From Ulvibacterium marinum (GTDB lineage: Bacteria > Bacteroidota > Bacteroidia > Flavobacteriales > Flavobacteriaceae): 64,000 nucleotides of DNA. Of this stretch, positions 10,430-25,678 are shown in pieces. A program made the translations under genes and the position numbers. The DNA is taken from contig NZ_RBCJ01000003.1 of the NCBI RefSeq assembly GCF_003626755.1, positions 1,245,859 to 1,309,858 of the forward strand, read 5' to 3'. Positions within the stretch are counted from its first letter, which is position 1, and the number at the start of each line of letters is the position of its first letter. Below the pieces are notes generated by a model, which searched no databases, was not told the origin of the DNA, and saw nothing but the letters and a program-made list of their open reading frames with translations.

Positions 10430-11509
10430 TTATTTTCCATGATTGTTTTGCCACACGGAAAAAGCAGCCCTTTCCATTCCATTTTCATCCAGAAGACCGG
10501 TATCTCTCCATAGCTGTCCAAGATCCTTAACTTCTGCGGGAAAAGTTTCCCAAAGGGCATCATAATCCCGGTGCACCCACCAAATAATGAATTCGTAAGT
10601 TTGGGTGTCGGCATGCTCCAACAAAGTTTCGAGATAAACGTTTTGTTCGTTTTCATTGCCGTCAATGGATACATTTAGATTTGGAATCACTAAGTTTTCT
10701 GCAATATGGGCGGTTTCTACAAAGGCAATCGGAGGGACGGCTTGGCTGTGTAAAAAGTCCAGCGCCTCCTGGAACTCGGTTTTTGAGCTTAGATTTTTCA
10801 AAAAAGGGTAGAAGCTGATCGCGACAAAGTCATTTTGATTTACATGATCCATGATGTCCCCAATATAGGTTTGCGGATCTGAAACTTCGGGTTCGTACAA
10901 ATTATGTAATGAAATTGATTCTGAAATCTTTAAATCAGGGTAGGACTGCTTAATTCTTGTCTTAACATCAAAAATCAAGTTGGTATAGGAGTCCCATTTT
11001 TCTGGAGACCTAAGCCGAAGCTCATTGACTTCAATAGCGATAACCAGATAATCCGGTGCAAATGCATCCAATAAGTAGCTGATATGCTTAAAATACGCCT
11101 CCCTGATATGAGTATCATCAAGGTTATCGTAGGCAGGTATCGTATTGTCAAAATCCGAGGCCAGTTCATCCCTGTTCGAATTCAATAAGCTGACGGAAAG
11201 CAATAAGGATTTTTCGGAAATTTTTCTGTTGGCGCGCCCAATCATTTCGTTGGTGAATTCCGATGGTAATGCCAGGTCGTTGATCCATGCATTCCAAGGA
11301 ATGTTGTTATCTATATGTTCAGCGTATATATCGGCATTACCTCCAATAAATGAATAGGTGTCATTTACATCCTGCAGATTGGGCCCATAACTCCATGTGG
11401 TAAATCCCATCTTAAAGTCCCTGTCCGATGCTATTTCAACACCCGGCTCATCCTTGGAGCAGTGGGTGAGAAGGCATATAATTAAAGTCGCAACTATGGT
11501 ATTCTTCAT
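10430..11509 (-). CDS. Glycoside-hydrolase-like (clan GH-A type TIM barrel) lipoprotein
   Basis: A 359-residue lipoprotein with lipobox LLTHC. The sequence alternates strands and helices as in a TIM barrel: GFTTWSYGP start, YLVIAIEVNELRLRSPEKWD, DFVAISFYPFL, PPIAFVETAH, FIIWWVHRDYD. The Asn-Glu of VNEL and the Glu of FVET sit where clan GH-A enzymes carry the acid/base and the nucleophile, about 100 residues apart. It resembles GH53-type or other GH-A members, but I cannot assign a family. No SusC/SusD genes are nearby, so this is not a typical polysaccharide utilisation locus. The ~170 bp upstream contains the start of an AT-rich repeat-like spacer. Confidence 0.6.
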   Translation of the reverse strand: MKNTIVATLIICLLTHCSKDEPGVEIASDRDFKMGFTTWSYGPNLQDVNDTYSFIGGNADIYAEHIDNNIPWNAWINDLALPSEFTNEMIGRANRKISEKSLLLSVSLLNSNRDELASDFDNTIPAYDNLDDTHIREAYFKHISYLLDAFAPDYLVIAIEVNELRLRSPEKWDSYTNLIFDVKTRIKQSYPDLKISESISLHNLYEPEVSDPQTYIGDIMDHVNQNDFVAISFYPFLKNLSSKTEFQEALDFLHSQAVPPIAFVETAHIAENLVIPNLNVSIDGNENEQNVYLETLLEHADTQTYEFIIWWVHRDYDALWETFPAEVKDLGQLWRDTGLLDENGMERAAFSVWQNNHGK

Positions 11510-11678
11510 TCGTATAGTATTGTTACTAACAATAGTATAACTAACGGTTTTGTGTATGATTAGTTGCGCATTACCAATAACAATTTTTTCAGGCTTGTAG
11601 TATCCTTTTACCTATGTTTTGGTTTAGTCAATTAAACCGCCGTTGCCTAAATACAAGTTTGACGGTCGTTTTTTGCAT

Positions 11679-13115
11679 TCATTCGGTCTCGGGGTAATCA
11701 AAAAAAACTATGCTATCGTTCTCATCAAGATAAACCGTAGTAAATAGGGTTTTAATACTGTTCAATCTATAGTATTTTAAAGTGTGGATTTTTTCATTAA
11801 AAAAAATTACTTCTTCTTTTTGAATGTTTTTTTCTCCTAAATAGACAATTGACTTGGTTTTGGAAATCGATTCTTTTACTTTTTTGGAGTGGTAAGAAAA
11901 AGGAAATGACTTACTAACATTTTCATTCTCTTGATTCGAGTTTATGTTTTGAAAGAAATTCAAATGAATATTTGTCAATTTCGTTTCTTCATCCGTAACA
12001 GGTGTTTTATTTGATAATTGTTGCAATTGTGGATAGTATACAGATGCGATTTCCTGTGCTAGCGAAAAATTAGCTCCACCGTATAAATTGCTTAAGACGA
12101 TAACTACGAATCTGTGCTTTGGTATAACAATGACTTGACTACTAAATCCGGTTCTGAAACCACCACTGTGTTCGGATATGGCAATGCCACCCAAAGGCCA
12201 GTTCATTAAACCGGCGCCAGTTGGAACAAATTCTCCATTGTTAAGCGTAGATGGTTCGAAAATAATTTTTTTTGATGGTTCGCTAATAAGCTCATTGTAA
12301 AGTAGGGCATTGTAAAATTTCATTGCGTCCATTGTTGTTGTACGAATACCAACATCCGCTCGTCCGTATGCATTTGGGGCAATTAATAGGCCATTGCCTA
12401 AGCCAGAGACTCCACTATTTAACGTATTGGAATCATAATTGAAATATCCCGAAACCCGGTTTGGTATTATCTTGTATGGATTGTCTACATAGGTTTCTGT
12501 CAGATTTAGGGGAACAAAAATGTTTTCCTTTAGAAATTGTCCATAGTGCTCTCCTGTTACTCTTTCGATAATAAGTCCCAGCACAAACGGGCCACAGGAG
12601 TAAGAGTAGCTTGAACCAGGTTTGAAAAGTAATTCCTGGGCAAACAAATGCTTCAGGAATAGGCCACCGGTTTGCGTTTGAAGGAACAATTGATTTGATT
12701 TATTCCAGTCATAAAGTGCCCAATCATCCACCAAACCAGAGGTATGGGTTAGAAGATGTTTAATGGTTATTAAACCCCAAGAGTCGGGTGCTTCGGGTAT
12801 GTACTTCGTGATAGTATCATTTAAATCTACTAATCCTTTTTCCGCCATTAACAGGATCGCGACTGCAGTATATGTTTTGCTCATAGAGGCTATGGCAAAA
12901 ACTGATTCATTGGTTACATCCGTATCTGTTTCTAGATTTGCCTTACCATAATACCCCTGTTCAATTACTTTTCCTTCTTTTGCGATCAGAAAGGCCATTC
13001 CCGGAATTTTTTTGGACGTTATTCTTTCCTTGATTATTTGATGCACCATACCTTGGGCATGAACAGTGGAATATTGAAGTGATATTGTAAGGAGTATGAA
13101 TACTATTCGTTTCAT
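11679..13115 (-). CDS. Serine hydrolase, class C beta-lactamase family
   Basis: A 478-residue exported protein with a signal peptide (IVFILLTISLQYSTVHAQG). It has S-x-x-K as SMSKTYTA at about residue 78, a HTSGL segment (IKHLLTHTSGLVDDWALYD), the Tyr motif as YSYSCGPFVLG, and the third motif as HSGG (ISEHSGGFRTGFS). In the second motif the usual Asn of Y-x-N is replaced by Cys. The C-terminal ~110 residues form an extra beta-like domain. Members are esterases, D-aminopeptidases or D,D-peptidases. It is not evidence of antibiotic resistance by itself. It is flanked on both sides by repeat-like spacers. Confidence 0.88.
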   Translation of the reverse strand: MKRIVFILLTISLQYSTVHAQGMVHQIIKERITSKKIPGMAFLIAKEGKVIEQGYYGKANLETDTDVTNESVFAIASMSKTYTAVAILLMAEKGLVDLNDTITKYIPEAPDSWGLITIKHLLTHTSGLVDDWALYDWNKSNQLFLQTQTGGLFLKHLFAQELLFKPGSSYSYSCGPFVLGLIIERVTGEHYGQFLKENIFVPLNLTETYVDNPYKIIPNRVSGYFNYDSNTLNSGVSGLGNGLLIAPNAYGRADVGIRTTTMDAMKFYNALLYNELISEPSKKIIFEPSTLNNGEFVPTGAGLMNWPLGGIAISEHSGGFRTGFSSQVIVIPKHRFVVIVLSNLYGGANFSLAQEIASVYYPQLQQLSNKTPVTDEETKLTNIHLNFFQNINSNQENENVSKSFPFSYHSKKVKESISKTKSIVYLGEKNIQKEEVIFFNEKIHTLKYYRLNSIKTLFTTVYLDENDSIVFFDYPETE

Positions 13116-15898: not shown

Positions 15899-16375
15899 CT
15901 AGTTGTTTTTTAAATCCGTTTGATGCTTTTCCGAAAGACACGGTTCGGCATATTCTAAAACTCCATCATTCTCATATTCTATCAATATTTTTTTGATTTC
16001 AGAATAGTTTACATCTTTTAAAATCTCCATTGAAAAATAAGAGTCGTTCATTCCTTCGGATGTACAATTCAATTCCTTAAATCGGTTTCGTATAATTTCT
16101 TTGTCAAATCCGTTTTTAGTTATTATGACTAAAACAATTGAGTTTCCAGAGTGTTTTATTGTCTTTTGGTAAGTCAGCATTTGTTCCGATTCGTCAAATT
16201 CCGCATAAAATTCATCATCAGTCGCAATTAGTGGTCCATAAAACGGAATGTTGTCCAGTTTGTAGATTCCATTTTCTTTGTCAATTTCCTCTGCCCACAT
16301 TGTTTCCACAGTCAACTCGTCCAAAACATTGCTATGGTATTTGAATAAAACTTTCTTTTGTTTGACTTCTTCCAT
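15899..16375 (-). CDS. DUF4265 domain protein
   Basis: A 158-residue soluble protein. The sequence KVLFKYHSNVLDELTVETMW, then YKLDNIPFYGPLIATDDEFY and a C-terminal FRELNCTSEG-like half matches the DUF4265 pattern. The N-terminal part is a small beta-barrel-like region rich in V and L; the C-terminal part (ITKNGFDKEIIRNRFKELNC) is ferredoxin-like. The biochemical role is unknown. DUF4265 genes are often found in accessory regions of soil and marine bacteria, and this one stands 9 bp downstream-facing from the 16384 gene within a repeat-bounded block. That spacing suggests the two are transcribed together. Confidence 0.72.
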   Translation of the reverse strand: MEEVKQKKVLFKYHSNVLDELTVETMWAEEIDKENGIYKLDNIPFYGPLIATDDEFYAEFDESEQMLTYQKTIKHSGNSIVLVIITKNGFDKEIIRNRFKELNCTSEGMNDSYFSMEILKDVNYSEIKKILIEYENDGVLEYAEPCLSEKHQTDLKNN

Positions 16376-16383
16376 TAATGCTT

Positions 16384-16815
16384 CTATTTCTTGAATTTAA
16401 ATTTCACTTTTTGTCCATCCTTCAAGTTTTCCGTTTGTTTTCCTAAACTTCCAGAAAATAAAATTAATTCCTTGAATGGGACTTTTCCATAATTCGATTT
16501 TTCATATTGTCCGCTTACTAGAGTTGGCATTTTAAGACAGTATTTTTCATCTGATTGTAATTCGCCTACTACTGATTTTGCTGATTCAATAATATTTGCC
16601 ATCTCCCAATCTTCAATAAATTCTGAATCAGCCAATAAATGCTCAAAATCGGATTGATTTTCCGCTATTTTTAAACAAGTCACTTCTTCAGGGCAGATTC
16701 TCCAATATTCGTTCTTATCTGTTTTGAAAATTACATTTCCGAAATCATTTGTACGAATAAGTTCAATGGCATTAAATCCTTTCCAATTCCAGGCTTTATT
16801 TATATCAGCAATCAT
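16384..16815 (-). CDS. DUF1851/Tdi1-like domain protein
   Basis: A 143-residue soluble protein read from ATG at 16815 (MIADINKAWNWKGF); ATG at 16833 is possible but lies within the upstream repeat. The central part (NDFGNVIFKTDKNEYWRICP, then EEVTCLKIAENQSDF) resembles the DUF1851/T6SS immunity Tdi1-type fold, a SUKH-like small cytoplasmic domain that includes immunity proteins. The assignment is by motif feel only. The next gene downstream on the strand is DUF4265 (9 bp). No toxin gene is visible beside it. Confidence 0.55.
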   Translation of the reverse strand: MIADINKAWNWKGFNAIELIRTNDFGNVIFKTDKNEYWRICPEEVTCLKIAENQSDFEHLLADSEFIEDWEMANIIESAKSVVGELQSDEKYCLKMPTLVSGQYEKSNYGKVPFKELILFSGSLGKQTENLKDGQKVKFKFKK

Positions 16816-16826
16816 TTTTTCAATTA

Positions 16827-17020
16827 GGCACAACGCTAAAGCTATGGCCCGTTTTAATGGGTTATGGCAATTGTTGGGTCGCAGTTTTTATTTTTCCCCT
16901 TACAACATAGTTAAAAACGTAGTCTGGCCGGCTTTTCCCCCTACCGTGGCGGATTAAATGGTTATTAGTTTTAAAATTAGTAAGAATCTAGCAATGAATT
17001 ATACACCGTGTTGGCAACAG
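16827..17020. repeat. Imperfect inverted repeat spacer
   Basis: The left arm at 16827-16850 carries GGCACAACGCTAAAGCTATG and the right arm at 16988-17020 carries TATACACCGTGTTGGCAAC. The right arm's reverse complement (GTTGCCAACACGGTGTATA) pairs partly with the left arm. It separates the carboxypeptidase-regulatory-like gene from the DUF1851-like gene, both on the minus strand. No open reading frame of interest is inside. Confidence 0.45.
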
Positions 17021-18015: not shown

Positions 18016-18492
18016 CTATCCAATGATAACATCGTAATCCTTAATTAATGCCCTCATTAATTTTTGTCCATTTTTTCCAAGGTCCTTATTTTTAAGTCCA
18101 AGGTCTTTCCTCATTTCTACCATAATTTTGGTCATCAACAAAAGGTGCTGTTTTGAGTCCGTTTTCTCATCTTCATTTTGCTGATACATAAATTGAAAAT
18201 AATCTGAAAATGCAATTATAACTTTTGGAGATGCATAAAGCACATATTTTTTATAAAACTCGTACAGGTCTGTCAACATTTTATTCGGGTTATTCCTTTT
18301 ATTTTCTTTTGTATTGGCAAAAATTCCGATTATTAAATTAACATATTACTGATAAATTTCACGTCTCTCTTTTGTTATTTCATTTGTAAGCTCTTTTTTC
18401 TTTTCAATATTACTCTTGATTAGATAGCCAATTCCTGCTCCAATTAAAGGAAGAGTTATTGATAAAACGGTTATTATTGTCCGAGAAGTCAT
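18016..18492 (-). pseudogene. Small membrane-anchored hypothetical gene broken by in-frame TAA
   Basis: A 158-codon frame runs from ATG 18492 to the stop at 18016, interrupted at codon 49 by TAA (plus-strand 18346-18348). The N-terminal part encodes a membrane segment (TVLSITLPLIGAGIGYLIKS) and a charged helix (EKKKELTNEITKERREIY). After the stop the same frame continues sensibly (VNLIIGIFANTKENKRNPNK, then LTDLYEFYKKYVLYASPKV). Both halves belong together by composition and by phase, so a nonsense change in one gene is the simplest reading. Re-initiation at ATG 18279 could still give an 87-residue soluble fragment. It lies 8 bp from the 33-residue membrane peptide gene upstream. Confidence 0.7.
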
Positions 18493-18904: not shown

Positions 18905-21547
18905 ATGGACGAAGACTATCTTAAAGGAATAGGCAAAATATGGACTAAAAAAGATGTACCAGCTAACATGGTGGATAGTGAAGCTATTAGTGATGCAGTA
19001 GATTCCATTTATGCCTACCTAACTAATTCCAGTCCAAAGTCTATCCTAGTATCTGGAGATAAGGGCGTGGGCAAGTCTGCCCTTATAAATCTAGTGTCCA
19101 AAAAACTGAAAGCCCATGGTTGGTTTATTTTCACGGCAACGGCTGGTAACATTATGGCTGGTCAAAGATACATTGGGGATTTGGAACAAAGTATCCAAAA
19201 TGTACTTTCCGAACTGACGGATGGCAAAAAGAATTTATGGATTGTTCCTCGATTTCAGGAATTATACTATGGGGGTAGACACGAATACTCCCCCGTAAGT
19301 ATATTAGATCAAATTCTACCCTTTGTAGAAAGTGGGGAATTAAAAATTATCGGTGAAGTAGACACAAACAGTTTAGAAAAGGTCATTCAATTTCGGCCAC
19401 AGATACTAAGTTGTTTTGAAATTGTACGGATAAGCCCATTATCCAAGGAAAATACACTCGCTTTGGCCAGTGAATGGATTAAAAAGGATGACAAGAATGG
19501 ACTATGGGATAGTTTCTCTGCAAAGGACTTGGATGAAGTATTCTTTTTATCCAATCAGTATCTTTCCTTTAAGGAAAATCCTGGATGTCTATTCGATCTC
19601 CTGAAGCAAACCAAAAAGCTTATTCAATTAGGAAGTGAAGAAGGCAAAAGGATTCAATTGGCCCACTTTTTAGACGCCCTTTCAAACATCACCGGATTAC
19701 CCAAAAAGATTCTGGACGATACCGAGAAATTGGACCTTGAACATCTTAAAAACCACTTTTCACAAAAGGTAATTGGTCAAGAGGACGCGGTGAATACCAT
19801 AATAGAAAGAATAGCCATGATAAAGGCCGGATTGACCGATCCAAGTAGACCGGCAGGAGTTTTTCTGTTCGTGGGGCCTACCGGAACAGGAAAGACAGAA
19901 GTGGCCAAAGCATTGGCGGAATATCTGTTCGGTTCGGAGAACAAGCTTATACGTCTTGACATGAGCGAATTTCAAACCCAGGAATCTATGTATAAAATTT
20001 TGGGAGATGCTTCGGATACTGCAGAGAATACGGCTTTGGTAAATACGATACGAAGAAAACCTTTTTCGGTCATTCTACTTGATGAATTTGAAAAGGCACA
20101 CCCAAACATTTGGGATCTTTTCCTTCAAGTCTTTGATGACGGAAGGCTAACGGACCAAAGGGGATCCATCGCAGATTTTAGGTACTCGATTATCATTCTT
20201 ACGTCTAACATTGGCGCCAGTCTGCCCGTGACCAATAGAGTAGGATTCAATACCTCTGAGGATGAACGGATCGATGGCAATATGCTCAAGGCGATCAACC
20301 AAACATTTCGGCCGGAGTTTGTCAATAGAATCGATAAGATTATCATGTTCAATCCTTTGACCAAAGCGATCGCAAAACAAATCCTTAAAAATGAACTGGG
20401 AAAAGTTTTGGCAAGAAGGGGACTTCGGCGAAGGGCTTGGGAATTGGATTTTGAAGATTCGGCCTTGGAGTTTTTATTGGAAAAGGGTTTTTCGAGTTCT
20501 TTGGGGGCAAGGCCTTTGAAGAGAGCAATAGAAAAATTCCTTTTGGCTCCTTTGGCGGTAACCATAGTCAATCACGATTATCCAAAAGGGAATCAATTCT
20601 TGTTGGTTAGTCCGGCTAAGCAAAAACTCAAAGTGGAGTTCATCGACCCTGATGAGCCTGATTTTACGTGGAATCAGAAAAAACAGATACTTGAGAAGCA
20701 AGAGGCCCAATCCAAAGTACTTAATTTAAAAGAAATAGTAGCCAATCCCAAAGGAGTATTGTCCGAGTTTAAGCTGATTGAAAGAAGATTGATAGAATTA
20801 CAAAAGGTTATTTCCAAAGAGCATTTGTTACAAGTTAAAGAGGATTATCTAGGAGAGATGGGCTCAACCGAATTTTGGTCCAAACCGGAACGATATGAAA
20901 TACTATCAGAAATAGAATTTATAGATCGATTTGAGAGTGCTTATGAAACCACGACCAGTTTATTGGAAAGATTGAAGGGACGCAACAAAGAAAGACTTTC
21001 CTATGATTCCAAATTAATCAGGAAACTAGCGCAGCGCCTATATTTACTAAATCAGGCCGTGAATTCCTATGTAAATAAAGAGCCTCAGGATGCTTTGATA
21101 AGAATTAAGTACAAAAAGTCTGATAGGGAGCATGGAAAGAAAATTGAGAATATGTACAGTTCTTGGTCAAAGCATAGAGGTATGAAAATGGAATTGATAA
21201 AAGAATCATCTGAGTCAGGAGAATGCATTTTTATTTTTTCGATCGTCGGTTTTGGAGCATATTCGCTTTTAAAATCAGAATCTGGCTATCACGTTTTTGA
21301 AAACCGAGGTTCCAAGGAAAAGGACATGATCAAGACAAGGATTAATGTAAGTGTAATAACCATGACCAATGAAGATCATAGGTCAATTAATACTACGGGA
21401 ATTTTGACCAGATTTTCAAAATCCGGTATTTCAAAAGTTGTAAGACGCTATAGAATGGACAAATCACCAGTGATCAAAGATTTGAAAAACCGTTGGCAAA
21501 CCGGTAAAGTGGAATATGTGTTAAATGGAAATTTCGACTTGTTTTAA
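18905..21547 (+). CDS. ClpB-like double AAA+ ATPase fused to a release-factor (PCRF)-like region
   Basis: An 880-residue protein with no ClpB N-domain and no long M-domain. NBD1 (about residues 1-260) has Walker A SGDKGVGKS (50-58) and a pore-loop-like RYIG (89-91 region). At the Walker B position it reads LWIVPRFQE (111-119) rather than a DE-containing strand, so NBD1 is probably hydrolysis-deficient. NBD2 (285-580) has Walker A VGPTGTGKT (323-331), Walker B ILLDEFEKAHP (390-400), sensor 1 LTSN, Arg finger FVNR (R475) and sensor 2 GARPLKR, but lacks the usual GYVG pore loop. Residues about 650-820 resemble RF2: EFWSKPERYEILSEIEFID, then a segment like the PCRF domain (WSKHRGMKMELIKESSESG, then AYSLLKSESGYHVF). 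The SPF tripeptide and the GGQ domain are absent. Known AAA_2/ClpB_D2-small/PCRF architectures exist; the function is not established to my knowledge. It may act on ribosomes. Confidence 0.85.
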   Translation: MDEDYLKGIGKIWTKKDVPANMVDSEAISDAVDSIYAYLTNSSPKSILVSGDKGVGKSALINLVSKKLKAHGWFIFTATAGNIMAGQRYIGDLEQSIQNVLSELTDGKKNLWIVPRFQELYYGGRHEYSPVSILDQILPFVESGELKIIGEVDTNSLEKVIQFRPQILSCFEIVRISPLSKENTLALASEWIKKDDKNGLWDSFSAKDLDEVFFLSNQYLSFKENPGCLFDLLKQTKKLIQLGSEEGKRIQLAHFLDALSNITGLPKKILDDTEKLDLEHLKNHFSQKVIGQEDAVNTIIERIAMIKAGLTDPSRPAGVFLFVGPTGTGKTEVAKALAEYLFGSENKLIRLDMSEFQTQESMYKILGDASDTAENTALVNTIRRKPFSVILLDEFEKAHPNIWDLFLQVFDDGRLTDQRGSIADFRYSIIILTSNIGASLPVTNRVGFNTSEDERIDGNMLKAINQTFRPEFVNRIDKIIMFNPLTKAIAKQILKNELGKVLARRGLRRRAWELDFEDSALEFLLEKGFSSSLGARPLKRAIEKFLLAPLAVTIVNHDYPKGNQFLLVSPAKQKLKVEFIDPDEPDFTWNQKKQILEKQEAQSKVLNLKEIVANPKGVLSEFKLIERRLIELQKVISKEHLLQVKEDYLGEMGSTEFWSKPERYEILSEIEFIDRFESAYETTTSLLERLKGRNKERLSYDSKLIRKLAQRLYLLNQAVNSYVNKEPQDALIRIKYKKSDREHGKKIENMYSSWSKHRGMKMELIKESSESGECIFIFSIVGFGAYSLLKSESGYHVFENRGSKEKDMIKTRINVSVITMTNEDHRSINTTGILTRFSKSGISKVVRRYRMDKSPVIKDLKNRWQTGKVEYVLNGNFDLF

Positions 21548-21839
21548 TTTCCTTCTAGACCAACGCATTATTAATTAGCGCAGGATTGCTGTCCGATTTT
21601 TGTAGCGTTCCGGAAGATAGGTTCCTAGCAAAAACAGTTTGGGAACAATCACATGGGCCGATTCCTAAATGTGGGAGGAGATCAAAGAAAACAATCATGA
21701 TAAAGAATAATATCTAAAGCTATATTATAAATTTTTGAATGAAATAGAGTTGTAAGTTTAGATCCAGATGTTTATGCTTCCCGGTCCATCTAGTTTTACT
21801 GAAGCAAAATATTTCTTATTTTCTCACGTTATTCGGATT

Positions 21840-23756
21840 ATGAACTCAATGAAATTCCCCCTTCTGGTTCTATTCTTTTTAACGGTATGTGCGGGCTTTG
21901 CACAAGCGACTAACTATGACGAAAGTTATCCGGGCGAAGATGTTATTACATTGGAGCTAGAGAAAGGAATTCAGATTAGAGAATCAAGAGGAAAACTGAT
22001 AATTACCCAAAACGTCCGTAAAAAAAATCTTTTCCTTTCCACAAACACACTAAAATTTACTGAGGATGAGATTAGTTACAACACGTTCAATCAGATTACG
22101 GCCATAAGCGCAAATACCCAAAATTTAGAGAATGGAAAGATAAAATACTATCCGGTTACTAACTTTTTAGACAAGGATGTATTGCTAAACAATGTTTTCT
22201 TTAATGATCAAAAAGAAAAGAAGGTTATCTATTCGAATGTAACCAAAAATTCGATAACTGATTTAAGCTATAGAATGAGAATCAAAGATCCTCATTTTAT
22301 TCCACCCTTTATTTTTTGGAGCAAAACCCCAATCGTAGAAGCGAGGGTTTCCGTGAGTTTTCCCAACCATGTCAAAGTCGCTTTTCATGAACTGAATTTA
22401 AACACTATCGATGTAAACTTCAAAGAAGAAAGTGAAGATGGGATTACAACCTACTCATGGATTTTGAATGAAGTTCCCGAGGTTGACCGATATTATGATT
22501 TTTCTCCACTGTATTATATTCCTCAGGTTATTATTTATGTTCACTCCTATAAACATCGGGGAGAGACCATTTCAATTTTAAAGAATACAAAGGATTTGTA
22601 TCAATGGTACAGATCCTTGATTTCCAGGATAAACGAGGATGAACAGGAGGAACTCCGAAGTATTACTAATGCTTTGGTGCAAAACTCTAATACACAAGAA
22701 GAAAAAATAAAAAAAATCTATTATTTCGTCCAGGACAGAATTAACTACATAGCATTCGAAGATGGGCTAAACGGATTTATTCCAAGAGATGCGATTCAAA
22801 TATATAGAAATAAGTATGGTGACTGTAAGGATATGGCCAACATCCTTAACGAAATGTTGCGGTATGCAGGAATTGATTCATATTTGACCTGGATAGGTAC
22901 TAGGGCCAAACCGTATTCTTATGAAGAAGTTCCTACCCCCTTTACGGACAACCATATGATTACCACGGTAGTAACACCAAATAAGGACACGGTTTACCTA
23001 GATGCAACGGCCAAGTATTTGGCCTATGGCTATCCTTCACCTTTTATTCAAGGAAAGGAGGCACTAATTGGGATATCGCCTTTTACCTACTCTATAAAAA
23101 AAGTTCCAGAAGTTGCTGCAACCAACAACGGTATCCGTGTTTCCAGCGTACTACATATACAGGATGAAAAACTTAGTGGACGGCATTCAGCTAAACTATG
23201 GGGATATGAGAAGTTAGAAATTATGCACAAAATTGAAAACAAAAGTGAGGAAGATCTTGATTTCATATATCAGAACCTTCGAATAGGAACGAAGCAGACA
23301 TCATTTAAAGATATCAACTACGAAAATTTGGAGAGAGAACGGGATAGCCTTTCAATTTCTTTTGATTCTGAAACTCGGGGGTATATAAAAAGGATTAATA
23401 ATAAGTTGTATATAAAACCGAATTTAGACCGTTATTTAATAAATAGTCTGGTAAAGGACGAACGTAGGATTTATGACAAAAAGATTGATTACAAATACCA
23501 TAAAACCTTTCACACGGTCATACATATTCCAGATGGATATGTTTTAGGCTCATTACCGGATGATGACAACTTTGAAAGTGACGATTTTGAATTCAATATC
23601 ACTTATAAAAAACAACACGATCAGATTATTATTCGGAAGGAAATTCTAGTGAATACTTTAAAAGTAACTTCCGAAGCCATTCCAAACTGGAATACATTTA
23701 TAAAATCCCTACTCAGGGCAAACAAAAAAAACATTATCCTTCATCCCAAAACCTAG
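21840..23756 (+). CDS. DUF3857/transglutaminase-like protein (first gene of second pair)
   Basis: A 638-residue protein from ATG 21840; a far-upstream ATG at 21768 would hide the signal peptide (FPLLVLFFLTVCAGFAQA). DUF3857-like sequence covers about residues 35-235. A transglutaminase core follows, with Cys329 in NKYGDCKDMANIL, His372 in TDNHMITTVV and Asp388 in VYLDATAKY. The C-terminal part is beta-rich. It is paired with 23762, five bases downstream, which lacks the cysteine. The layout mirrors the pair at 6424-10258 on the opposite strand. The product is presumably exported; the substrate is unknown. Confidence 0.82.
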   Translation: MNSMKFPLLVLFFLTVCAGFAQATNYDESYPGEDVITLELEKGIQIRESRGKLIITQNVRKKNLFLSTNTLKFTEDEISYNTFNQITAISANTQNLENGKIKYYPVTNFLDKDVLLNNVFFNDQKEKKVIYSNVTKNSITDLSYRMRIKDPHFIPPFIFWSKTPIVEARVSVSFPNHVKVAFHELNLNTIDVNFKEESEDGITTYSWILNEVPEVDRYYDFSPLYYIPQVIIYVHSYKHRGETISILKNTKDLYQWYRSLISRINEDEQEELRSITNALVQNSNTQEEKIKKIYYFVQDRINYIAFEDGLNGFIPRDAIQIYRNKYGDCKDMANILNEMLRYAGIDSYLTWIGTRAKPYSYEEVPTPFTDNHMITTVVTPNKDTVYLDATAKYLAYGYPSPFIQGKEALIGISPFTYSIKKVPEVAATNNGIRVSSVLHIQDEKLSGRHSAKLWGYEKLEIMHKIENKSEEDLDFIYQNLRIGTKQTSFKDINYENLERERDSLSISFDSETRGYIKRINNKLYIKPNLDRYLINSLVKDERRIYDKKIDYKYHKTFHTVIHIPDGYVLGSLPDDDNFESDDFEFNITYKKQHDQIIIRKEILVNTLKVTSEAIPNWNTFIKSLLRANKKNIILHPKT

Positions 23757-23761
23757 GGCTT

Positions 23762-25678
23762 ATGTTAGACAATTTCAAGCTTTTCATTCTATTTGTTCTT
23801 TTTTCCAGCAATTTGTATACCCAGCTTTACAAAAGTCATGATTGGGAGGTTAATCCTGTATATCATGAAATTGACTCCGAAGATGAAACCTTGTCTTCTG
23901 TGGCAATCAAAGAAAAATATCTAATTCAGTACTACAAGCCAGTTCTGGGAAATGCTTATAAATTATTTGAAACCAAACATAGTATTATACGCGTGAATAC
24001 GGAAAAAGGAGTGAAAAGGCATAATCGGGTTTATATTCCTATACGGAATATACGCAGAGTAGTAGATATCAAAGCAAGGGTACTAACTAAGGATGGGAAG
24101 GTTAAATTACTCAATAAAACGAATATTAAAGAACTCAAGAATGTGAAAAACTATGGGAATTTTAAAATTTTTGCAATGGAAGGAGTTACTAAAAATTCTC
24201 AATTGGAATTCATTTATACTTTGGAAAGGCAAATTAGTTCCGTAGGTAGCGTCGTTGTCCAAAAAGATTACAAGGTAAAGAAGGCGGAAGTTATTTTGAG
24301 GAGACCGACTTCACTTATCTCGGAGATTAAGCCCTATAATGGCTTCCCAGAGTTTACCAGAAAAGTTGTAGAAGGTAATAAAAAGGCTTATACGGCAACG
24401 GTCAATAATATCCCTGCGATGATAGACGAGGAGTCTGCTACCCCGGATGCCAACAGGATGAAAGTATCCTACGTGGTAAGAGGCACCAATGGCAATGGGA
24501 TGTGGGAAAACTTGAAAAACGTATTACAGCGTAATTATATAAAGATAAAGTCTAGAAAAATAAAAACCTTGGTTGCGGATTTTGAAAAGTACAAAGCTGA
24601 CGATGACAATGGTATTATCAATACGATCTCGAACTATGTGCACAATAGATACCATATTGTAAGAGGTAATACTCCCGAATATGATGATCTCAGTACAATC
24701 ATAGCCAAAAAACAAGCCACGGAACAAGGCATAGTTAAAGTATATACTGCCTTATTCAATCATTACGGTATTTCTTATGAATTGGTTTTAACTTCTAATC
24801 GTTATCATCATAAATTTGATGAGTCGTTCTATTCAAGTTTTAACCTTCAGGAATTATTGATTTATTTTCCGGAGAATGAAAAATACATTGTGCCAAGCCA
24901 TGTAAATTCCAGATTGGATTATGCACCTCTAGAGTATATATCCAATACAGGATTTTTTGTAACTGATCATAATTATCGTTTTGAAGAGATAGCCATACCA
25001 CCGGTCGAGCACACACAAACAATTCGGAATTTTACATTGGCAATTAATGAACACAAAGTGGGATGGGTACAGTGTCAGCAAAAGCTTTCGGGTTATAAAG
25101 CCTCTAATATGCGCGGTGCTCACAAATACTTTAGCAAAGAAGATTACAATGAGTTCAAGAATATCACCGCTACGTCGGGCATTGAAGATGCTGAAATTAT
25201 AAAGTTTGATGTTGCAAATGAAAATCTAGAACTAATTACAGATAATACCACATTTGAAATCAATTGGACCTATACTGCAGAAAGTTTGGTAGAGGAAATT
25301 GGAGATGATGATTTGTTGTTTAACATTGGAAGGGTTATTGGGACTCAAATTGAGTTCTATCAAGAAGTGGATAGGGTAAATCCTGTGGAGATACGATTTC
25401 CAAATACCTATAACTATCATTTTGAAATTACGATTCCCAAAGGGTACAGACCTAGTGGAATGGAAAGCTTAGAGATTAATGAAAAAGTGATGATTGATGG
25501 TATAGAGGCCTGTTCTTTTATTTCTTCTTATGAGGTTCAGCATGATAAAATCATTATAGAAGCAAGTGAAGCTTATCGCTTATTGAAAATGAACTTGGGG
25601 CATTACGAGGCCTATAAGAAAGTGGTTAATTCAGCTTTTGATTTTAGTAAAAAAAGCATTCTGTTTGAAAAAATATAA
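23762..25678 (+). CDS. DUF3857 protein with degenerate transglutaminase-like domain (second gene of second pair)
   Basis: A 638-residue exported protein (signal segment LFILFVLFSSNLYTQ). The DUF3857-type N-terminal region includes RVYIPIRNIRRVVDIKARVL and AMEGVTKNSQLEFIYTLE. At the transglutaminase position it reads ATEQGIVKVYTALFNHYGI, then YELVLTSNRYHHKFDESF, so the GDC cysteine motif is replaced by EQG and catalysis is unlikely. Start at ATG 23762, 5 bp after the stop of the active partner, indicates an operon. The partner order (active first, inactive second) is the same as in the minus-strand pair. Confidence 0.8.
   Translation: MLDNFKLFILFVLFSSNLYTQLYKSHDWEVNPVYHEIDSEDETLSSVAIKEKYLIQYYKPVLGNAYKLFETKHSIIRVNTEKGVKRHNRVYIPIRNIRRVVDIKARVLTKDGKVKLLNKTNIKELKNVKNYGNFKIFAMEGVTKNSQLEFIYTLERQISSVGSVVVQKDYKVKKAEVILRRPTSLISEIKPYNGFPEFTRKVVEGNKKAYTATVNNIPAMIDEESATPDANRMKVSYVVRGTNGNGMWENLKNVLQRNYIKIKSRKIKTLVADFEKYKADDDNGIINTISNYVHNRYHIVRGNTPEYDDLSTIIAKKQATEQGIVKVYTALFNHYGISYELVLTSNRYHHKFDESFYSSFNLQELLIYFPENEKYIVPSHVNSRLDYAPLEYISNTGFFVTDHNYRFEEIAIPPVEHTQTIRNFTLAINEHKVGWVQCQQKLSGYKASNMRGAHKYFSKEDYNEFKNITATSGIEDAEIIKFDVANENLELITDNTTFEINWTYTAESLVEEIGDDDLLFNIGRVIGTQIEFYQEVDRVNPVEIRFPNTYNYHFEITIPKGYRPSGMESLEINEKVMIDGIEACSFISSYEVQHDKIIIEASEAYRLLKMNLGHYEAYKKVVNSAFDFSKKSILFEKI

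Follow-up and report, generated by a model that had tools for sequence, protein, structure and literature searches.

In the genome of Ulvibacterium marinum (Flavobacteriaceae), one gene joins a two-ring Clp ATPase to the body of the peptide-release factor RF2. The gene lies in the 64,000-nucleotide stretch analysed here (hereafter the window; contig NZ_RBCJ01000003.1, positions 1,245,859 to 1,309,858), where a single open reading frame (ORF) on the forward strand, running from an ATG at 18905 to a stop codon ending at 21547, encodes 880 residues; these are exactly the coordinates given in a first-pass annotation made from the sequence alone. Two Clp AAA+ rings (D1 and D2) are followed by a linker and an RF2-derived module. 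Judged from its sequence, this Clp–RF2 fusion is real and rare, and its AAA part resembles the ClpP-partner ATPases, not ClpB. We tentatively read the protein as an unfoldase that works with ClpP and carries a docking module derived from RF2, whose target is probably the ribosome. In bacterial ribosome rescue, release factors and Clp proteases are known as separate parts. A single protein joining a Clp motor to an RF2 body across phyla would offer a direct way to study how aberrant nascent chains could be brought to ClpP, and the fusion may link protein destruction to ribosomes. No description of the fusion was found among the literature matches listed for it or its features (titles and abstract starts, mostly open-access literature). 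The parts of the gene, with the basis for each in brackets, are as follows.

18905..21547 (+): whole coding sequence, 880 residues, with D1, D2, linker and RF2-derived module (ORF reading, Pfam, NCBIfam)
18905..19654 (+): D1 ring, about residues 1-250, without a Clp N-domain, Walker A starting at residue 51 (NCBIfam, alignment)
19055..19078 (+): D1 Walker A, GDKGVGKS, kept (family alignment)
19157..19177 (+): D1 pore loop, AGQRYIG, tyrosine kept (family alignment)
19238..19261 (+): D1 Walker B site, WIVPRFQE, with Pro-Arg in place of the catalytic Asp-Glu (family alignment)
19655..20599 (+): D2 ring, approximately residues 251-565, comprising AAA_2 and ClpB_D2-small (Pfam, alignment)
19874..19897 (+): D2 Walker A, GPTGTGKT, kept (family alignment)
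20003..20029 (+): D2 pore loop, GDASDTAEN, the GYVG of ClpA/B/C being deleted (alignment)
20072..20095 (+): D2 Walker B, ILLDEFEK, kept (family alignment)
20240..20248 (+): VGF tripeptide, residues 446-448, at the loop for ClpP docking, which lies between sensor 1 (TSN) and the arginine finger (alignment)
20306..20329 (+): D2 arginine-finger motif, FRPEFVNR (family alignment)
20504..20524 (+): D2 sensor 2, GARPLKR (family alignment)
20693..21085 (+): RF2 domain-1-like helical part, approximately residues 597-727, holding EFWSKPER (profile, AlphaFold2, structural alignment)
21086..21361 (+): RF2 domain-2-like part, approximately residues 728-819, without GGxE, SPF and HTS (structural and sequence alignment)
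21362..21436 (+): short linker at the site of the GGQ domain 3 of RF1/RF2, approximately residues 820-844 (alignment)
21437..21544 (+): RF2 domain-4-like tail, VVRRYR...VIKD...WQTGK...NGNFDLF, residues 845-880 (phmmer, profile, alignment)

The domain-4 tail, the VGF at the ClpP loop, the loss of the D1 Walker B and the deletion of the D2 aromatic pore loop are additional to the first-pass annotation, whose three quoted peptides all occur in the translation; EFWSKPER occupies residues 656-663 and SGYHVFE residues 793-799. A frameshift or assembly artefact was rejected on the strength of the clean single ORF and of the same domain order in 16 loci, as far as the contigs extend. The gene sits on a 1.3 Mb contig, and the genome is given as 99.98% complete.

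The C-terminal part is related to release factors, as already suspected at first sight: sequence, profile and predicted fold agree on this, and the relationship is seen again across the 16 loci. The Pfam family PCRF matches it at 26.7 bits within the whole protein and at 31.3 bits when it is scanned alone (gathering cut-off 24). NCBIfam prfB (TIGR00020) matches at E=4.3e-10 and 39 bits, far under its equivalog-type cut-off of 370, and prfA at E=1.1e-4. With phmmer against the PDB the best match to RF2 chains had E=7.5e-6, and a further stretch, individually non-significant, fell on the C-terminal tail of RF2. The profile built from 15 modules (A3) reached E=1.1e-15 for RF2 and E=1.1e-13 for RF1; its second stretch, weak individually, mapped to RF2 domain 4, so that the similarity is not due to chance. 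RF2 was the top-ranked Foldseek match (E=1.4e-13) of an AlphaFold2 model of the module made from A3 (pLDDT 90.7, pTM 0.85), and VIA-align placed model residues 14-297 on residues 4-356 of RF2 (1GQE) with Z 18.5 and an rmsd of 4.2 over 262 residues. Chance similarity to RF2 was thus rejected by the prfB match, the profile and the structural alignment together, and neither of the two outcomes that the first-pass annotation had named as fatal to its proposal, an absent release-factor fold or a chance-only similarity, was encountered.

Aligned to RF1 and RF2, the module contains domains 1, 2 and 4 in the same order, with the stretch of the GGQ domain reduced to a short linker. The RF2-type FW is kept, and the domain-4 tail resembles RF2 rather than RF1 (alignment, by eye). 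GGxE, SPF and HTS are the stop-codon-reading elements of RF2. They are missing, together with the GGQ domain, from all 15 modules, which confirms the reported absence of SPF and GGQ and adds that of GGxE. The C-terminal module is a homologue of RF2 that retains domains 1, 2 and 4, as alignment and predicted fold both indicate; it differs from prfB in lacking domain 3 and the three codon-reading elements, in its place behind a Clp ATPase and in its score far below the prfB cut-off. An excerpt of PMC6514570 describes the catalytic domain of bacterial release factors as an insertion within the stop-codon-recognition domain, which makes the loss of domain 3 with the rest kept structurally reasonable. 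Between the window and the related locus L015, dN/dS is about 0.12 in domain 1 and 0.24 in domain 2/4 (dS is high there, and dN/dS was not computable for the rings), so the release-factor part is under constraint in this pair.

Forty-nine columns are conserved in at least 13 of the 15 modules. Twenty-five of them are also found in one or both of two RF2s, the other 24 in neither; one of the comparison sequences, the window genome's own RF2, is without its N-terminal end in the frame read. These numbers bear on the main rival explanation, in which the RF2 module has no link to the ribosome and has been reused as a protein–protein adaptor, a substrate receptor or an oligomerisation device, for a ClpP-partner unfoldase. 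The 24 columns shared with neither RF2 suggest new surfaces, the codon-reading and catalytic elements are gone throughout, and the neighbouring genes scanned are mostly metabolic or transport genes. However, 25 of the conserved columns are still those of RF2, and domains 1, 2 and 4 have all been kept, beyond the needs of a random adaptor. We consider such reuse a real possibility, though on balance a doubtful one.

The first-pass annotation also described a double AAA+ protein of the Clp type, and the fusion is indeed a two-ring Clp ATPase: among the 25 of 49 families shown in the Pfam scan of the whole protein, AAA_2 matches residues 315-479 at 157 bits and ClpB_D2-small residues 485-564 at 54.9 bits, and the NCBIfam ClpA model (TIGR02639) aligns its positions 210-723 with residues 48-558. 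The latter match, at 318.9 bits, lies far below the curated cut-off of 993.15, and the protein is not a ClpA by that measure. Motif alignments were made of the family with the window genome's own ClpB and ClpC, then with E. coli ClpA and ClpB and the Clps of other genomes. They comprise 14 members for D1 and 15 for D2 (L016 and L019 being truncated), and 15 for the module (whose alignment does not include L034); the L013 sequence breaks off ahead of D1. In D1, Walker A and the pore-loop tyrosine are kept in 14/14, and the Asp-Glu pair of Walker B is lost in all 14, with Asp replaced by Pro in 13 and by Gly in L034, and with a variable residue (Asp in L014) in place of Glu. The RR of the D1 arginine-finger region is lost as well. 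In D2, Walker A, Walker B, sensor 1, the arginine finger and sensor 2 are kept in 15/15 (the end of the contig truncates Walker A in L019, where sensor 2 has the form GSRPLKR), whereas the aromatic pore loop GYVG, present in 16/16 reference Clps, is deleted in every member. This inverted motor, with a grip loop but no Walker B in ring 1 and an ATPase but no grip loop in ring 2, is a natural test of the division of labour in two-ring Clps.

D2 is the best conserved part of the protein (with a mean pairwise identity of 0.61, while the release-factor parts have 0.36-0.38 and D1 has 0.35), and its core can be aligned with normal Clp ATPases. Both facts are compatible with an ordinary ClpB- or ClpA-type chaperone carrying a decaying or chance C-terminal extension. 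Such an extension would hardly occur in open frames across phyla, with a confidently predicted fold and signs of constraint, and this reading, which at the level of sequence is already contradicted, seems to us extremely improbable.

Between sensor 1 and the arginine finger, all 15 members with a usable D2 carry the tripeptide [VIL]GF, in the column occupied by the IGL of E. coli ClpA; L014 has LGF there. Among the reference rows, assigned to ClpC and ClpB types by this loop and by the tree, [VIM]GF is present in 6/6 of the ClpC type and in none of seven ClpB and two other Clp rows (L053, L054). According to an excerpt of PMC10149685, LGF loops stabilise the binding of ClpC to ClpP and are missing from ClpB, so that the loop tells the two apart; in an excerpt of PMC2829514 the IGF/L consensus is located between sensor I and box VII, which is where the VGF of the fusion stands. 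By this [LIV]-G-[FL] loop, found in 15/15 members, the fusion is a predicted ClpP partner, which would bind ClpP and serve its ATP-dependent degradation of substrates.

In the window protein the gap between the two rings is about 10 residues (245 to 256), compared with about 129 in ClpB 1qvr (397 to 527), so the M-domain is absent. Nor is there room for a Clp N-domain ahead of a Walker A at residue 51. On the missing M-domain and the ClpP-docking tripeptide a ClpB identity was rejected, and the 'ClpB-like disaggregase' of the first-pass annotation finds no support. With ClpB/Hsp104 the fusion shares a related D2 ring, but it is without the M-domain, the N-domain and the D2 aromatic pore loop, and possesses the ClpP loop. 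In terms of the class-I (two-ring) Clp/Hsp100 proteins, the D2 motif set is present; the catalytic Walker B of D1, the GYVG of D2 and, in the window protein, the N-domain are not. We read the AAA part as belonging to the ClpP-partner Clp ATPases, from which it has diverged deeply. Its likeness to ClpA/ClpC lies in two AAA+ rings without an M-domain (window protein), [VIL]GF at the ClpP loop and the full D2 ATPase motifs. It differs from them in the missing N-domain (window protein), in the lost D1 Walker B, D1 arginine-finger RR and D2 GYVG, in the added RF2-derived module, in its separate D2 clade and in its low ClpA score. ClpI of Actinomycetota is a further Clp class found by bioinformatics (PMC10149685, excerpt); the fusion was set against it by description, and the excerpt makes no mention of a release-factor-like module.

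The fusion stands beside the cell's own machinery. The window genome has ordinary RF1 and RF2 (with three PCRF matches in all), ClpB- and ClpC-type proteins, and two strong ClpP genes (G000 C8:430594-431121 and C9:94890-95420) as well as one weak match, which makes the fusion an addition and not a replacement. Two strong ClpP genes are also found in 4/5 of the genus and family relatives checked.

Torsins have one AAA+ domain and no release-factor module. An excerpt of PMC7175109 presents them as relatives of Clp/Hsp100 proteins that lack both aromatic pore loops and an arginine finger. The fusion resembles them in its missing D2 aromatic loop but keeps the D2 arginine-finger motif, and is therefore not a torsin. 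The likeness nevertheless suggests a non-threading AAA+ switch, in which the ATP cycle of ring 2 would reshape the ring and remodel a partner bound to the module without ClpP, the VGF being a relic or serving another ligand. Deletion of the D2 loop in 15/15 members and loss of the D1 Walker B in 14/14 both fit this idea. A pure switch would need neither the D1 pore-loop tyrosine, kept in all 14, nor the ClpP tripeptide, kept in all 15, and we judge it unlikely.

The mechanism that we tentatively favour, in which an unfoldase coupled to ClpP docks through its RF2-derived module, would run as follows. A hexamer would dock on ClpP through the VGF loops. The RF2-derived module would act as a codon-independent adaptor, bringing the ring to ribosomes (at the A site or the factor-binding centre) or to a partner protein of RF2. 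ATP hydrolysis in ring 2 would drive the ring, and the loops of ring 1 would grip a weakly structured chain, for example an aberrant nascent chain, which would be passed on to ClpP. We are most confident that only ring 2 hydrolyses ATP, less so that the ring docks on ClpP, then that the RF2 body serves for docking and that its target is the ribosome, and least that nascent chains are the substrate. The arrangement would be comparable to the eukaryotic pair of the AAA+ ATPase Cdc48 and the release-factor-like Vms1, which act in ribosome quality control, but in one polypeptide made from unrelated bacterial parts. Like Cdc48–Vms1 (PMC6514570, excerpt), the fusion pairs an AAA+ motor with a release-factor-like part. 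Vms1 is a separate protein of the unrelated aeRF-1 superfamily with its own hydrolase domain, whereas the release-factor part of the fusion is a bacterial RF2 without the catalytic domain. A more specific version makes the fusion a distinct class of ClpP-dependent machine, in which the gutted RF2 is a built-in ribosome-recognition head, stalled or aberrant translation complexes are caught independently of the codon, the chain is fed to ClpP, and many members are membrane-tethered; in this full form we find the proposal rather unlikely.

Several observations weigh against the ClpP-coupled, ribosome-docking mechanism. Because the D2 aromatic pore loop is lost, ordinary threading into ClpP is disfavoured, and the analogy drawn in the first-pass annotation with polypeptide threading by the D2 of ClpB cannot simply be transferred. 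The small domain of D2 is the ClpP-facing side in known Clps, and it is to this domain that the C-terminal module is attached, where it could crowd ClpP. The RF2 parts that contact the codon and the peptidyl-transferase centre are those gone from the module, so that docking in the A site, also put forward in the first-pass annotation, cannot be assumed and stays inferential. Foldseek TM-scores to whole release factors are low (0.36-0.54 by model length; 0.54 for 1GQE and about 0.4 for most ribosome-bound factors), as would be expected if the domains are oriented differently, but they give no proof of an overall release-factor-like shape. The net charge of domain 2/4 is positive in 10/15 members, zero in two and negative in three, and is not decisive. 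A second ClpP gene is found in 4/5 fusion genomes but also in 5/15 fusion-free genomes, counts that are not independent of kinship. No translation gene recurs next to the fusion in the loci compared, and the sole recurring protease neighbour, a DegP-like gene, occurs only in the syntenic loci L009, L013 and L034, where other neighbours are conserved as well.

The 16 distinct loci, found in several phyla, are a lower bound. Thirteen come from a scan of species genomes with two short peptide patterns (194 stretches matched, 14 encoding relatives, 13 of these fusions or fusion fragments), and the others are the window, L009 (genome G657) and L034 (G1117). Duplicates were merged: L010 coincides with L005/L008, as L013 does with L030/L035. 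L022 was rejected as a fusion, since it is an ordinary protein of the prfB type in which SPF and GGQ are present. The scan records, nearly all metagenome-assembled, are labelled Rhodothermales, Rhodothermaceae, Cyclobacteriaceae, Croceivirga, Hyphomicrobiales, Rhodospirillales, Alphaproteobacteria, Acidobacteriota (two), Krumholzibacteriota, Verrucomicrobiia, Akkermansia and, in one case, simply 'bacterium'. Identity to the window protein is 70% over the whole length for L015, 47% for L020 and 35-43% for 11 others. In the D2 tree the 15 members form a single clade (100/100) on a stem of 1.72 changes per column, by which the fusion is of one origin; the tree gives the clade no firm place among the Clps, and EcClpA, L053 and L054 are flagged as long branches.

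In overlapping genome samples the module is scarce. It was found in 1/397 genomes of the family sample (the window itself, E<=1e-8), in 3/395 of the phylum sample (E<=1e-6), in 2/395 of the order sample (the window and one marginal match, E=8.6e-8, in a 362-residue frame with one stop) and in 4/114 of the order of G741. Three weak matches in a sample of 60 relatives, overlapping with the first three (E 4e-5 to 6e-4, frames of 359-378 residues), are ordinary RF1-type proteins with GGQ. Two of the scan records, L021 and L023, hold near-identical fusions labelled Akkermansia muciniphila and Verrucomicrobiia, possibly through a binning or naming error in one of them, and L010, L015 and L016 (IP29b bins 81, 83 and 128) share one sample prefix under three organism labels.

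So patchy a distribution (1/397 and 4/114 in the samples above) would suit an ATPase for antiphage or stress defence, one acting by attacking or silencing ribosomes, a role raised in the first-pass annotation. Nucleotide BLAST of 20.7 kb of L015 against the window showed only the fusion gene to be shared, and PADLOC models of Clp-like defence ATPases match the AAA rings (DolB best, 127 bits, residues 272-446; PDC-M37B, 103 bits). Upstream of the fusion, at 18016-18279 (-), lies an 87-residue ORF weakly matching the abortive-infection protein AbiN (E=1.6e-5). PADLOC has no match on the release-factor module, however, no defence gene recurs next to the fusion in the loci compared, and three related copies share a conserved chromosomal neighbourhood. 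A scan of viral contigs with two other peptide patterns matched 20 stretches, none confirmed as a relative, and a plasmid search gave no match. The sole phage match is a weak, release-factor-like one (E=8e-4) in the unannotated Enterococcus phage record OR846643.1 (7385-7861). A defence role is not favoured by these data, and we hold it to be very unlikely.

The recurring genomic context hoped for in the first-pass annotation was not found beyond close relatives. The neighbourhood common to L009, L013 and L034 contains the DegP-like protease, a fumarase-type lyase and a pantoate ligase; in L009 the DegP-like gene (10860-12413 (-)) is found downstream of the fusion, in the opposite orientation, and homologues occupy the same place in the other two. 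BLAST of 16 loci against one another (with about 9-32 kb of the window, and without L034) recovered, besides the fusion, the shared neighbourhood of L009 and L013, the pantoate ligase in L009, L013 and the non-member L022, two pairs, and a histidine-kinase-like group in L014, L015 and L020 that adjoins the fusion only in L014. Pfam scans of neighbours (9, then 10 and 9) returned metabolic, transport, signalling and peptidase genes or no match; a matrixin-like peptidase upstream of L009 and an M1 peptidase near L020 do not recur.

An N-terminal extension precedes the rings in 10/15 other members (truncated in L013). It is missing from L008, L015, L020 and the window, and the L016 and L019 sequences do not reach far enough to show it. 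Of the nine extensions without a visible cut, seven (L009, L011, L012, L017, L021, L023 and L034) have a hydrophobic N-terminal helix by hydropathy, that of L009 being the weakest (1.76); L014 and L018 do not. The extension of L009 was modelled as helices (pLDDT 82.3, pTM 0.72), its best Foldseek match was non-significant (E=0.14), and it gave, as the sole extension scanned, no Pfam match over the curated cut-off. Many members may thus carry a helical domain, modelled for L009, behind a membrane-helix-like segment and ahead of the AAA rings.

Directly downstream of the fusion in the window, at 21768-25678 (+), are two tandem DUF3857/transglutaminase-like proteins; the first was not found in four relatives at E<=1e-30, in a search that had no positive and is uninformative. 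On the other side, at 15899-16833 (-), are, next to each other, a DUF4265 protein and a protein with a C-terminal domain of the Tdi1 immunity type of type VI secretion systems.

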